A stretch of DNA of 64,000 nt from Tautonia plasticadhaerens (GTDB taxonomy: Bacteria > Planctomycetota > Planctomycetia > Isosphaerales > Isosphaeraceae), in the NCBI RefSeq assembly GCF_007752535.1, contig NZ_CP036426.1, positions 1,612,001 through 1,676,000 of the forward strand. The letters run 5' to 3'. Shown piece after piece: positions 44,065-50,224 of this stretch. Under the pieces are notes generated by a model. That model was not told where the DNA came from. It saw only the letters and a program-made list of their open reading frames with translations, and ran no database searches. How positions within the stretch are numbered: position 1 is the first letter of the stretch; each line of letters starts with the position of its first letter. Position numbers and translations under genes: made by a program.

Positions 44065-45278
44065 CTACGTCTTCCGTGGCCTGCCTCGCTTACGAGGGAT
44101 CTTCACGAACCACTTCTCAAGCGACGGCAGGCGGATCACCTCGGCCTCCAACGCCTCCATCTCCTCGGGCTTCAGCCTGACCCCCTTGGCGTAGGTCGTC
44201 TCCACCAGGCTGACCACCGGGTGCTTCCGCTTCCAGGTCATCGATCGGGCGAATCCCAACACCGCCTCCACCGAGTCCAGCAGCGACCCGTTCCAGTGCA
44301 TCTCCAGCACGCCCCAGCACCGCTCGATCGGGTTGTACTTGCTGTGGTACGGCGGGTAGTACGCCAACTGCACCACCAGGCGATACTTGCGGGCGAAGGC
44401 CACGATCCGCTTGAGGAACTGGCTCCGCCGGCTGTGGTTCTCCGGGCCGTTGTCCAGGTTGATCACCAGCGTCTTGACCCGCAGGAACCGCAGGCGGACG
44501 CCCTCCCACCATTGCTCCAGGCGATCGGCGATGAAGTCGCTGGTGACCTTCGACCGGGCCATGTACAGCCACAGGTCGTCGTGCTCGGGCAGGAAGATGC
44601 CGAAGGGGGTCAGCGTCGCCACGGGCTTGAAGTCGTGATCCGCCGCCTTCGTGCCGGTCCGGCTCCGGCCCCGCCGTGAGAAGGGGCCGACATGCACCGT
44701 CGCCTTGGCGTCGATCGAGAGCCGCAGGGTGCCCCTGGCCCGATCCGCCTCGGGGTTGACCGCCTTCAGTTGATCGAAGATGGCATCGGTCTGCGGGACT
44801 CTTTTTGGGGGCGGCACTTGGCCACCCTGGAGAGGCGATAGCCCAGCAGGTTCAGCTTGGTGTTGATGGTCTGCTGGGTGGGCAACTCCTCGTCGGTGTA
44901 GCCCTTCGTGGCGATCAACTGGCGTCGGACCTCGGCGGCACTGATCCGGGTGAAGAGCCCCTTGGTCTGGAACTTGGGGTCGGCCTGGCTCTGCCCGTCG
45001 GCGATGCTGCGGATGTCATCGAGGAGTCGGGGCAAGTGCTCCTCGGCGGGCTTGCGACGGCGGGCCGAGAAGGCGTCCACGCAGGTCATGCCCGAGCGGA
45101 GTTCGTGCGTGCCCTTGCGGATGGTCTCCCGGCACCAGCCGAGATGCTCCTGGGCCCAGCGTTGTCCACCCCGCCCCATCGCTGCGACGGTCTTGGCCAT
45201 GAAGACTCGCTTCGGACTGCCCTTGAGGGCCTTGGCGGCATCGATGAGGACGGGGATCATCTCGGGGCTGGGCCGCAT
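44065..45278 (-). CDS. ISAzo13-family transposase in two frames
   Basis: Frame 1 (ATG 45278) has AKTVAAMGRGGQRWAQEHLG and AAEVRRQLIATKGYTDEELP. At CCCCCAAAAAGA near 44810 it passes to the frame TDAIFDQLKAVNPEADRA, TLRLSIDAKATVHVGPFSR (Asp), TLVINLDNGPENHSRRSQFL (Asp) and YHSKYNPIERCWGVLEMHW (Glu). This is the Rhodopirellula-type ISAzo13 enzyme. The A5G run is a plausible slippery site, so the break may be programmed. Confidence 0.87.
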
Positions 45279-45645: not shown

Positions 45646-47576
45646 TCACTCGGTCGGCAAGACCGGGAAGGCAATCGCGCGGGCCGCGTCCACGCCTGGG
45701 ACCTGCCGCAGATACTCGCAGACTGCGGCCAACGGCTCGGGCTCGGCTGAGGGCGCGCGGCGCTCCGTGCCGCGATGGGGATCGTCCGTCACGGTGAGTG
45801 CCCGGCCATCGAACCGCCACACGCCCTCGGTTGCCGCGATAGACTTCCAGGGCAAGCCGGCCTGCGCGTCCCATTCCGAGAACGTCGGCAGCGACTCGCG
45901 CGAGGCGACCAGCACGAACGCCTGGAGACCCATGCCGTCGGTCAGGCCGTATTAATCGCCGGCCCCGGCCGGATAGTCGATCTCGGTCGTTGGGCTCGGG
46001 GGGGTCCCTTCCTCCGCCTTGGGGCAGAAGGAAACCGACCCGTCCGGGTTCAGCGCAATCAGGTAGCAGTACGCCGGCTCGTTCAGCTGGGCCTTCACGC
46101 GCACGTTGTCGTTGGACCGGGTGGAGAAGGTCAGGACTCTGATCGTCCCCTGCCCCGTCCTCGTGTTGCCTTGGAATCGCTCGACGTCCAGCGACTCGAT
46201 TACCAGAGGCGTGGCCGCCAAGTCTGGAGCGGGTGCCGCATCCGGGGCGACCGGCACGGGCGGGGCCGGCCCACCCTGGCCCTCGACCTCAGGGTTCCGA
46301 GAGATGATCCCGACGACCGCTCCCAGCCCGAGGACCGCCGCCGCCCAACCGGCTCGACGCCGCCAGCGGCCCGGCGACGGGAAGGTCTCGCTGGCGATCG
46401 AGCTCGTCTCGGAAATCGGCTCGCCCTTCGGAAGCGATGCCATATCATCGTCGAAGAGCCGAGACAGGTCGTGCCCGACGGCCCAGGGAGCCAGCGCCTC
46501 GGCCACCTCGCGCGGCTCGGCGGGCCGGACGACGGGCTTCTTGGCCAGCAGGCGGTCTTGCAAGCACAGCAAGCCGGGCATCCCCGCCAGCTCGGGCCGG
46601 AACCGGGTGATCGGCGGCACCGGCTCCTGGCGATGCGCCACGATCTTGCGGGTCAGGCCTTCGTGGCGATCGTCGCCGAACGGCGGCCGGCCGGCGAGCA
46701 GACAATAGAGCGTACAGCCGAGACTATAAAGATCCGATCGGATGGTCGCCGAGCGGAGGTCGTCGGCCTGCTCGGGCGCCAGGTAGTCAGCCGTGCCCCC
46801 CATCGAACCGTTCTGCGTCAAGGAGTCGGCCACGTCCTCGACCAGGCGTGCCAGGCCGAAGTCGAGCACCTTGACCACCCCTTCGGGCGTCAGCATCAGA
46901 TTCGACGGCTTGATGTCGCGGTGGACCAGCTTTTTCTCGTGCAGGGCCTGGAGCCCCCGGGCCGCCTGCCGGGCCAGCTCGCACGCCTCGGCCACCGGCA
47001 GCGGCCCGAGTCGCCGGACCAGCCGTTCCAAGTCGTTGCCGAGCACGAGGTCCATCACCAGGTACGGCCGGCCCCGGCTTACGCCGCCGTCGGTGGCCCG
47101 GACCAGGTTCGGGTGGTCGAGCAAGCCGACCGCCTTCATCTCGCGCTCGAACCGCCGGACGGCGTGCTCGTCGTGCCGGCCGGCCCGGATGATTTTCAAG
47201 GCGACCTCGCGCCCCAGCCCCCGATGCGGGGCGCGGTAGACCTGACCCAAGCCGCCGTGCCCGAGCGGCCCGAGAACCTCGTAGCGCTCGCCGACGACCT
47301 CGCCGACGGCCAAGCCCCCGTCGGGCGACGGCACGAACGGCGAGGAGGAACCGAAGCCGCTTGGCTTCGAGGGAACCGTCGGAAGGTCCTTACTGATCGC
47401 TGCGCAGGGAAGTTTACTATCCGGTTCCGGAAAGGCCGAAAATCACTGGTTCCGGGAGGCCACAGAGTTAACTTCTCTGCGCAGCGATCAGTAGTATCGC
47501 CCGGGCCACTTCTCGGCACCCCGTCCAGCCCCGCCTGCGTCTCGGCCATGACCGCCTCCCGCCCTCGCGAGGCCAT
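45646..47576 (-). pseudogene. Membrane Ser/Thr protein kinase with DUF4384-like sensor end, disrupted
   Basis: The native start is probably ATG 47576 (ASRGREAVMAETQAGLDGVP). A 99-bp MITE then interrupts the linker. Removing it with one TA joins SGPGDT to KDLPTVPSKPSG in frame. The kinase domain is complete: LGHGGLGQVYRA, VALKII, LVHRDIKPSNLM, LDFGLARL, GTADYLAPEQ. A membrane helix (AGWAAAVLGLGAVVGII) precedes an outer domain with LNEPAYCYLIALNPDGSVSF. TAA at 45952-45954 cuts this domain before GLQAFVLVASRESLPTFSEW. An internal ATG at 47334 could still give kinase plus helix. Confidence 0.88.
47393..47491. mobile_element. MITE, family B (99 bp)
   Basis: Inverted ends CTGATCGCTGCGCAGGGAAG at 47393 and CTGATCGCTGCGCAGAGAAG (complement) at 47491, about 22 bp with one difference. 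TA flanks both sides (47391-47392, 47492-47493), as for elements moved by IS630/Tc1-type enzymes. It has no coding capacity. None of the four IS630 elements in the window shares these ends. It lies in the N-terminal coding region of the kinase gene. Confidence 0.88.
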
Positions 47577-47604
47577 CGCCGCTCGTCACATCTTCCTTAA
47601 GTAA

Positions 47605-48543
47605 CTATCTCAATAGCGTCATGCGGCCCTGATCCGGTGGAGCCTCCGGTACCAGAGCAGGCCGCAGGCCGGTTGGATCAGGCCGAGGGAGTTCTCCTCA
47701 TGCTCGTCGTAGCGGACCAGCAGCCCCCGACACTTCGACAGCCAGGCCAGCGTCCGCTCCACCACCCAGCGGCGGGCCTTCCGCCGGCCCGGCCGCCGCT
47801 CCGGGCGGGGTCCGCCACGGGCCGGACGGATGTGGGGGACATACCCATGCCCCTCGGCCACCCCACGAGCCGGTCCGTTGTCATACCCGGCGTCCAGGCA
47901 CAGGTGCTGCTCGACCTGCTCGGGGTCGGGCCGCTCGGTCACCACCGCACGGATCGTCGCCTCCAGCAGCGTGAAGTCCGGGGCGTTGGCCCCGGCGATG
48001 ACCACGCCCAGCGGCCCGCCGTCGCCCTCGACCAGCAGGCCCTGCTTGGTCCCCGGCTTGGCCCGGTCGGTCGGGTCGGGGCCCGTCTGTTTCCCCCCCG
48101 AACCGGGCCTTGCCCGGCCGCCCGTCGGCCGCCTGCCACCGCCATTGGACCTCGCCCAGCTCGTCGCACTCCTCGACCAGCAGGGCCCGGATCCGCTCGA
48201 AGACGCCGTGGCGGCACCGCCGCTGGGACCAGCGGTGCACCGGGCTGTCGTCGCCATACTCCCTGGGCAGCGTGTGCCACTGGCAGCCGCTGCGGGGGCG
48301 GGAGATGATGCCGTCGAAGGCCGCCCGCCAGTCGATCCGGCCCCGGCCGCCGTGCTCCTCGGGCGGCGGCGGGGCGTCTTCGAGCAGGATCGGCTCGATC
48401 CGCTCCCAGAGGGCGTCGGGCACCTCCCAGATGGTCTCCAGCGGCTTGACCCCTCGACTCTTCCGTCCCATGGCTGCGTCTCCTGAGGTGATCGCCCCGC
48501 CCCCTCAAGGTACGCAGCCGGTTCGGGTTAGGTTCTGAGATAG
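47605..48543 (-). mobile_element. IS5-family (IS427-like) element
   Basis: The likely ends are CTATCTCA at 47605 and its complement TGAGATAG ending at 48543. Only eight bases match strictly. No clear target duplication is seen. It lies just upstream of the kinase pseudogene and may have taken its promoter. Confidence 0.65.
47619..48471 (-). CDS. IS5-family (IS427-like) transposase in two frames
   Basis: Frame 1 (ATG 48471) has TIWEVPDALWERIEPILLED, DWRAAFDGIISRPRSGCQWH and EVQWRWQAADG. At a GGGGGGGAAAC run near 48100 the reading passes to TDRAKPGTKQGLLVEGDGGP (Asp region), LCLDAGYDNGPARG (Asp) and RRWVVERTLAWLSKCRGLLV (Glu). Such G/A runs are the programmed frameshift sites of IS427-type elements, so it may be functional. 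Confidence 0.88.
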
Positions 48544-48720
48544 ATTCCTAGGTGGGAGAGTCCGTAGTAGGAATGCCGAAACGCCCTCTGGCGAATGTCG
48601 GATAGTGCATCCTGGTTTCTGGAAATCCCCCGCCCGCCTGGGCGAGGGCTCGGCTTGAAGCGGCGGGTCACCGCCGGTCCCCCCGGAAAGTGCCGACCGA
48701 CCCCAGGGAGACCGCCGCCG

Positions 48721-49906
48721 ATGACCCACCAGGATCAACCTGCCGCCATCGACGAGGTCATGGAACTGCTGGCCGAGCATGGCTCCGACGGCCTGGCCCA
48801 GGCCATCGGCGTCCTGCGCGACGAGCTCATGGAGCGGGAGCGGACCCAGGCCCTCGGGGCCGCCCCCCACCGGCGATCCGAGGCACGCAAGGGCTCCGCC
48901 AACGGCTCCAAGCCCCAGACGCGGCACACCCCGATGGGGCCGATCGCCGTCCGGGTGCCGCAGGCCCGAGGCCTCGACTCCTATGCCTCGGCGTTGGAGA
49001 GGGGCGTCCGCAGCGAGCGGGCGTCGAAGCCGGCCGTCGCCGAGAGGGACGGGCCGGGCGTCTCGACCGGCAAGGGGGCCGCCATCGCCGAGCGGCCCCG
49101 CGGGTCGGAGGTCACCGGCAGTCAGGTCAGCCGGGCCGCCGGGGCCCTCGACGAGGGGCCGGAGGGGTGGCGGGGCCGCCCGCCGGGGGAGACGCCGTAC
49201 CCGATCCCGGATGCCCGCGACGAGGAGGTCCGCCTCGGCGGCTCGATCGTCTCGTGTGCGGTGCTGAATCGTCTCGTGTGCGGTGCTGACGGCCATCGGC
49301 ATCGATCCCGGGGGCCGGCGGTCGATCCCCGGGGTCGGCGTCTCGATGGCGGAGGCGGAGGTCCACTGGCGGGGCTTCCCGGCCTCGCTGCAGGCCCGTG
49401 GGCCGCACGGGGTCGAGATGCCCACCGGCGACGCCCACGCCGGCCGGGAGCAGGCCCTGGCCGCCCGGCTGACCGGCGTGCCGCGGCGGCGGGGCCAGTC
49501 CCCCCCGGCGGAGGACGCCCCGGCCTACGTGCCGAGGCCGTCGCTGCCGCCGGAGGTCGCCGCCGGCCCGCGGGCGGTCTTCGACGCCCCGGATCGCGGC
49601 GAGGCCGAGCGGCGACTGGGCCTGGCGGCGAAGAGGTGCCGGGCCGTGGCCCCGAAGCCGGCCGAGTGGCCGGAGCGGGACGTGCCGGAGGGGCTGACCA
49701 TCTTCACGCTGCCGCCGGGCCACCGGCGGCGGCTGCGGACGAGCGACATGCCGGAGCGGCTGAACGAGGAGGTGAGCCGGCGGACGCAGGTGGCGGGGTT
49801 GTCCCCGAACGAGGGATCAGTCCTGCGGCTGGTCAGTGCGGTGTTGATGGGGATCAGCGAGGGCTGGGAGACAGGGCGGAGACGTTTGGCGACGGGACCG
49901 GGGTGA
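48721..49906 (+). pseudogene. IS256-family transposase broken by a 22-bp tandem duplication
   Basis: The first part (ATG 48721) has AIDEVMELLAEHGSDGLAQA and GPIAVRVPQARGLDSYASAL. At 49246-49289 a 22-bp segment is repeated, shifting the frame. The second part reads TAIGIDPGGRRSIPGVGVSM, EVHWRGFPASLQARGPHGVE and, near the end, EGLTIFTLPPGHRRRLRTSD and RRTQVAGLSPNEGSVLRLVS. Removing one unit joins CAVL to TAIGID in frame. Catalytic positions are also degenerate (for example MPTGDAHAG where related enzymes have a conserved Asp pair), so it is a long-dead copy. Confidence 0.85.
49246..49289 (+). repeat. 22-bp tandem duplication
   Basis: Two perfect copies of a 22-bp unit starting ATCGTCTCGTGTGCGGTGCT lie at 49246-49267 and 49268-49289. 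Since 22 is not a multiple of three, the duplication shifts the IS256 reading frame. Perfect identity of the two copies suggests it is recent. Confidence 0.95.
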
Positions 49907-49930
49907 CCTGTCCGCCTTCAGGCCGGGAAT

Positions 49931-50224
49931 TTACAGAAAGGGGGTTGCACGATCGGCGAAGTCCTCCCGGCAGCGGAGCCCGCTCCGTTGCTCGTTGAGC
50001 CCCGTCGCGACCGTGTCGCGCCCCCAGCCGAAGCGACGCCCGGCCTGGTGGGCGTTGCCGACGCAGAGTTCGGTGGCGACCTCGGCCTGGAACAGGCGGC
50101 GTTGATACCCGGTGAGCCGCCGGGCGGCCGAGCGGATCAGGGCGTCGCGGCGAGCGATGGCGTCGTCCATGGGGGTGGCCCGGCCTGCCGACGAGACGGT
50201 GAGCGATCGCCCAGAGTCTCCCAT
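49931..50224 (-). pseudogene. N-terminal fragment of an unidentified transposase-like protein
   Basis: About 97 residues with ARRDALIRSAARRLTGYQRR, FQAEVATELCVGNAHQAGRR and FGWGRDTVATGLNEQRSGLR, a helix-turn-helix-like layout found at the start of some planctomycete transposases. No downstream domain follows, so it is probably a remnant. I do not recognise the family with certainty. ATG 50170 (MDDAIARRD) is the more likely start. Confidence 0.45.

Follow-up and report, generated by a model that had tools for sequence, protein, structure and literature searches.

The interrupted kinase locus

The window, by which we mean the whole stretch of 64,000 nucleotides that was analysed, contains a kinase gene that is interrupted by a short MITE and has an IS5-family element next to it. 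The features at this locus are as follows, in window coordinates.

45952-47576, minus strand: host kinase gene (PF00069), interrupted by the MITE
45952-47334, minus strand: kinase-domain ORF (PF00069, 1.8e-46), with a possible restart GTG at 47334
45952-45954, minus strand: in-frame TAA, where homologues read on
47391-47493, no strand assigned: MITE with its flanking TA duplication
47393-47491: element proper, 99 bp, between TAs at 47391-47392 and 47492-47493
47391-47418, plus strand: left terminal inverted repeat, 28 nt including the TA
47466-47493, minus strand: right terminal inverted repeat, 28 nt including the TA
47419-47465, no strand assigned: non-coding middle, forming one long hairpin together with the arms
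47605-48543, minus strand: IS5-family element, whose ORF at 47619-48257 passes the NCBIfam IS5 cut-off

The first-pass annotation had described a 99-bp element between two TAs, with ends of ~22 bp carrying one mismatch, and the coordinates bear out both statements: one mismatch occurs in the first 22 nt after the TA, and 26 of 28 nt pair between the arms when the TA is included (2 mismatches). The element is short and non-coding and has terminal inverted repeats, as a MITE should, and its 99 bp leave no space for a transposase. Its hairpin has a folding energy of -61.9 kcal/mol, with a z-score of -10.3 on the plus strand and -8.4 on the other. Five TA-flanked inverted repeats occur in the window (at least 18 matches in 22, span up to 1.7 kb), and the MITE alone spans less than 1 kb; at spans of 60-400 bp it ranks at the top with 21 of 22 bases matching, compared to a best of 14-17 of 22 in 30 first-order Markov versions of the window. 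The ends of the remaining four differ from those of the MITE, and no further site in the window matches a MITE end within 5 mismatches in 21, in agreement with the earlier statement that these ends are unlike those of the IS630 elements in the window.

An identical copy at an unrelated site

Searching the whole genome (9.4 Mb, 6 contigs), we obtained two sites at E 4.9e-48, both matching over 103/103 positions, in the same orientation and 2.3 Mb apart, whereas four further sites matched at E above 1 only. The second copy (G000:C1:3945659-3945761) has flanks unrelated to those of the first, and this second copy decided in favor of the first-pass annotation, which had read the element as a MITE with a TA duplication. 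Another genome of the same genus (G002) has one copy with 83% identity, TA-flanked and in a different place (C4:4854-4956), which follows a 478-aa ORF and contains the listed start of a 614-aa ORF, at whose beginning it lies; it is also spanned by a 160-aa ORF. The TA duplication is present at all three copies. As an identical copy occurs between unrelated flanks and the 83% copy lies elsewhere in a genome of the same genus, the element is a mobile insertion. Its target-site duplication and its copies in unrelated places are those of a MITE; the high copy number that is usual, if not defining, for MITEs is not seen, with 2 copies in its own genome. Matches to the MITE were returned from 8 of 148 genomes; in three of these (G018, G034 and G042) the match covered just 19-22 bases of the middle, and we attributed it to chance.

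Ends shared with a group of IS630 elements

The element is very probably a non-autonomous, TA-flanked MITE of the IS630 (Tc1/mariner-like) group, moved by the transposase of an IS630 subgroup. In the G009 genome, an end of the MITE type overlaps the final codons of an IS630-type transposase frame, and a protein search with this transposase fragment found matches in 27 of 148 genomes at 1e-10, including the own genome. We compared 16 IS ends with the right end of the MITE, read inward over 29 bases, and found the best agreement of all for a genome of the same family, G019 (27/29 and 26/29, the former for the left end of the IS). The G019 ends lie on separate contig edges, two aligning to the transposase start and two to the transposase end; relative to the frame of this IS630-group transposase, the 27/29 kind is found at its start and the 26/29 kind at its end. 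Because the ends are shared, we infer that they belong to one element. Lower scores, again out of 29, were obtained for L087 (25 and 24), G009 (23 and 23, the left end being taken from L065, an inferred G009 isolate), G043 (23), G001 (23), L084 (22 and 22), G003 (22 and 22), G013 (21), and G011 (20), as well as for the IS ends of the own genome (21 and 19).

L084 and L087 are full IS630 elements of 1097 and 1103 bp with TACTGATCRCTGCGCAA ends. The transposases of the own genome and of L087 exceed the NCBIfam IS630 cut-off (NF033545; 189.8 and 185.5 bits, respectively, versus 100), and both have DDE_3 and HTH domains; these are the proteins with which the G019 edges align. The IS630 end pattern occurred in 11 of 45 genomes and its reversed control in 0 of 45, while a looser pattern (up to 2 mismatches, 45 genomes, summed columns) gave 103 matches versus 21 for the reversed control, such that single weak ends may be due to chance. 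The first-pass annotation had called for a different IS630-type parent: the kind exists, as an IS of ~1.1 kb with ends that match at up to 27/29 bases, while the exact parent, with all 29 end bases of the MITE, was not found in these searches. A transposase of the IS630 subgroup with TACTGANCGNTGCGCARAGAAG-type ends would bind the ~28-bp inverted ends of the MITE, excise the element, and insert it at a TA that is thereby duplicated. Movement would occur in trans by the transposase of this subgroup, and by cut-and-paste.

A scan of genome contigs for TACTGATCGCTGCGCAR returned 62 stretches, many of them in unrelated phyla and taken as chance matches. For 10 of the 62, a partner in facing orientation lay no more than 2.5 kb away and had up to 4 mismatches, among them L084 and L087 at IS length and, as short elements, L067 and L099. 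L086, L097, L101, L103, and L105 were discarded, their partners lacking the TA or being clearly poor, and L068 (104 bp, from an Armatimonadetes record) has a poor partner and looks like chance.

Small relatives in several genera

Related fold-back elements occur in several genera of the same bacterial family. Using a pair search in the fetched loci and a partner search from single ends (reaching 1.7 kb ahead, a distance before which many contigs end), we found short elements of 102, 103, 105, 169, 171, and 173 bp in G000, G001, G002, G007, G009, G012, G020, G041, and UBA4732 (L099), where the short element of G007 is apparently the L067 element; a weak 105-bp pair in G044 came from the partner search. 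At E 0.01, a covariance model matched at least 12 of the 45 family genomes (up to 88 candidates scored per genome), the weakest matches being doubtful, and with its 105 positions it is biased to that length, a bias that the partner search and the looser-pattern search do not have. The latter gave 20 facing end pairs closer than 2 kb in the 45 genomes, 9 of them long (998-1099) and 11 short, the short ones measuring 102 (one), 103 (two), 105 (five), 148 (one), 171 (one), and 173 bp (one). The 148-bp pair is thus an exception to two length classes of 102-105 and 169-173 bp.

Among 15 contig-edge stretches taken from G007, 6 join to a 171-bp MITE, which indicates at least three copies of it in that genome, 8 are IS ends with the same first 20 end bases as this MITE, and one (L209) was neither and was dropped. 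All five of the eight IS ends that were aligned match the start or the end of a transposase, the starts weakly. Comparing eight 105-bp elements that align without gaps, we found identities of 67-90% in the left ends and 24-69% in the middles; the right ends likewise reach 67-90%, but 33-53% in comparisons with G044 and for G019-G027. The ends of the small elements can be sorted into types by what follows the shared part, TTAAC or TCAAGTT, and these types recur among the IS ends, which fits a co-evolution of small elements and transposases.

The element represents a new family of IS630-type MITEs, of a kind that is already known. Compared by description, it appears closest in kind to the RUP and Correia elements. 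RUP, at 107 bp, has TA ends and ends like those of IS630-Spn1, its proposed mover; the ends pair when folded, and the parts of these sources that we consulted give ~110 copies in pneumococcus and list inverted ends of 9 bp (PMC2229807, PMC3049150). The likeness to RUP, by kind and length only, lies in the length, the TA, the IS630-related ends, and their pairing, whereas the copy number (~110 versus 2), the inverted ends (9 versus 28 bp), and the host differ. The Correia/NEMIS elements of Neisseria come in sizes of ~107 and ~155 bp with TA ends and 24-bp inverted ends (PMC2229807, consulted in part), and thus resemble the present family, on their description, in having two sizes, TA ends, and inverted ends; they differ in the host, and the consulted part of PMC2229807 names no parent IS for them. 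With the IS630 family itself, the MITE has in common the TA flanks and related ends of ~28-30 bp, while the transposase gene is missing. We found no description of IS630-type MITEs in planctomycetes in the open-licence PMC literature at the level of titles and abstract starts. What the present data add is a TA-MITE family in planctomycetes, with a likely parent IS group, across several genera of one family, which offers a natural series for how such elements arise and what sets their length.

Of what remains, the most interesting point is that the length recurs while the middle is not conserved. One idea, to which we give a rather low probability, is that the transposase-DNA complex, by its geometry, restricts bacterial MITEs driven by IS630 transposases to preferred lengths (~105 and ~170 bp). 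If so, the length would be kept across genera while the middle would be free to vary, and the ~107 bp of RUP and of the short Correia element would represent convergence on the same constraint.

Alternative explanations

The two copies might stem from a segmental duplication or recombination rather than from transposition, given that both MITEs lie within ~1.1 kb of copies of the same IS256-type element. The similarity of the two regions ends at the element (104 bases), however, apart from this IS256-type copy on one side of each, and the IS256 copies stand at slightly unequal distances with nothing similar in between. Since similarity stops at the MITE and G002 has a separate copy, we consider a segmental duplication extremely improbable. 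It is also unlikely, if somewhat less so, that the hairpin is more than a plain hitchhiker and has been retained for a function, either as an RNA or in regulation (an attenuator or RNase III site). Such a role would agree with the very stable fold on both strands and with Correia elements, which are said in the consulted part of PMC2649163 to bind RNase III and to create promoters. In the eight 105-bp relatives, however, the 30-nt ends keep their pairing in 82% of cells compared to 34-38% when slid, whereas pairing of the middle is hardly conserved (41% and 50%, versus 30-44% slid), and 25 of 28 comparisons between middles reach only 24-47% identity. RNAalifold placed 20 of its 23 pairs, in 7 sequences, in the ends. 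As the pairing of the middle is close to the slid controls, and a search of 47300-47600 against Rfam at E 1 returned nothing, we make no claim of a conserved RNA structure.

The own genome contains three intact IS630-group copies, which are nearly identical to each other (1098/1098 and 1096/1098):

C2:103881-104978: 1098 bp, open, 343 codons
C3:87985-89082: 1098 bp, open, 343 codons
C3:119374-120471 (L124): 1098 bp, open, 343 codons

These C2 and C3 copies may have moved the MITE in place of a lost or foreign cognate IS, a possibility that we take seriously while judging it the less probable one. The three open transposase frames speak for it, and the identity of the two MITE copies suggests recent movement. 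Against it, the IS ends of the own genome match the MITE at 19-21 of 29 bases only, compared to 27/29 for the G019 element, and the two-ended, TA-flanked copies deviate from the MITE in 3 of their 17 outermost bases. Moreover, the ends of the 105-bp relatives in G001, G009, G012, and G020 continue with TCAAGTT beyond the shared part and are closer to the type of IS end found in the own genome; this suggests that the cognate elements form separate sets.

The window ORF of the IS256-type element exceeds the Pfam Transposase_mut cut-off and falls below the NCBIfam IS256 cut-off; the two copies near the MITEs (window 48601-49954 and L012:8859-10190) are degenerate and 97% identical. A further IS630 copy in the own genome (L128, G000:C1:2884174-2885171) measures 998 bp, 100 bp shorter than the intact ones, and has a TAG within its transposase match. 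Flanks of GA...GA occur at L124 and L128, two of the four two-ended IS630-group copies in this genome, and contig-edge ends in G007 (L201-L203) have AA or TT flanks, so the choice of TA is not strict in this IS group.

Consequences for the kinase gene

Removing the MITE together with one TA joins the frame of the upstream ATG (47576) to the kinase frame. The first-pass annotation had called the element removable without trace; the joining of the frames upholds this as sequence logic, while excision itself was not observed. As the net insertion amounts to 101 bp, the kinase frame is shifted. The MITE landed in the 5′ part of the kinase gene, whose transcript would carry a long hairpin, and expression of the kinase would need an internal start.

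A search for orthologues in 45 family genomes at 1e-70 (up to 34 candidates scored per genome) yielded, among the matches listed, the gene itself and one kinase-domain match of 50% (G027), hence no close orthologue among these; a search with the N-terminal part of the gene in the same 45 genomes added at least five weak matches at 1e-9 (up to 116 candidates scored per genome). One of these weak matches, L171 in G036, is an uninterrupted frame (1243 aa open) that aligns over the MITE junction, where it has no insert and a gap of one residue, while nine other kinase loci that we tried aligned only downstream of the junction. This single distant homologue lends modest support to a junction free of the insert.

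The kinase gene has probably been damaged in more than one way. Four aligned homologues (two in G007, one each in G038 and G026) continue past the position of the TAA at 45952-45954, and of 11 homologous places in other genomes, 10 are without a stop and the remaining one (G009) has a TGA. The IS5-type element, whose ends we set by eye from an 8-bp CTATCTCA/TGAGATAG pair, begins 28 bp upstream of the kinase ATG. For annotation, this kinase counts as an interrupted gene. Just downstream of it, at window positions 44065-45278, an ISAzo13-type transposase is divided between two overlapping ORFs, the larger of which is above the Pfam PF07592 cut-off and below that of NCBIfam.
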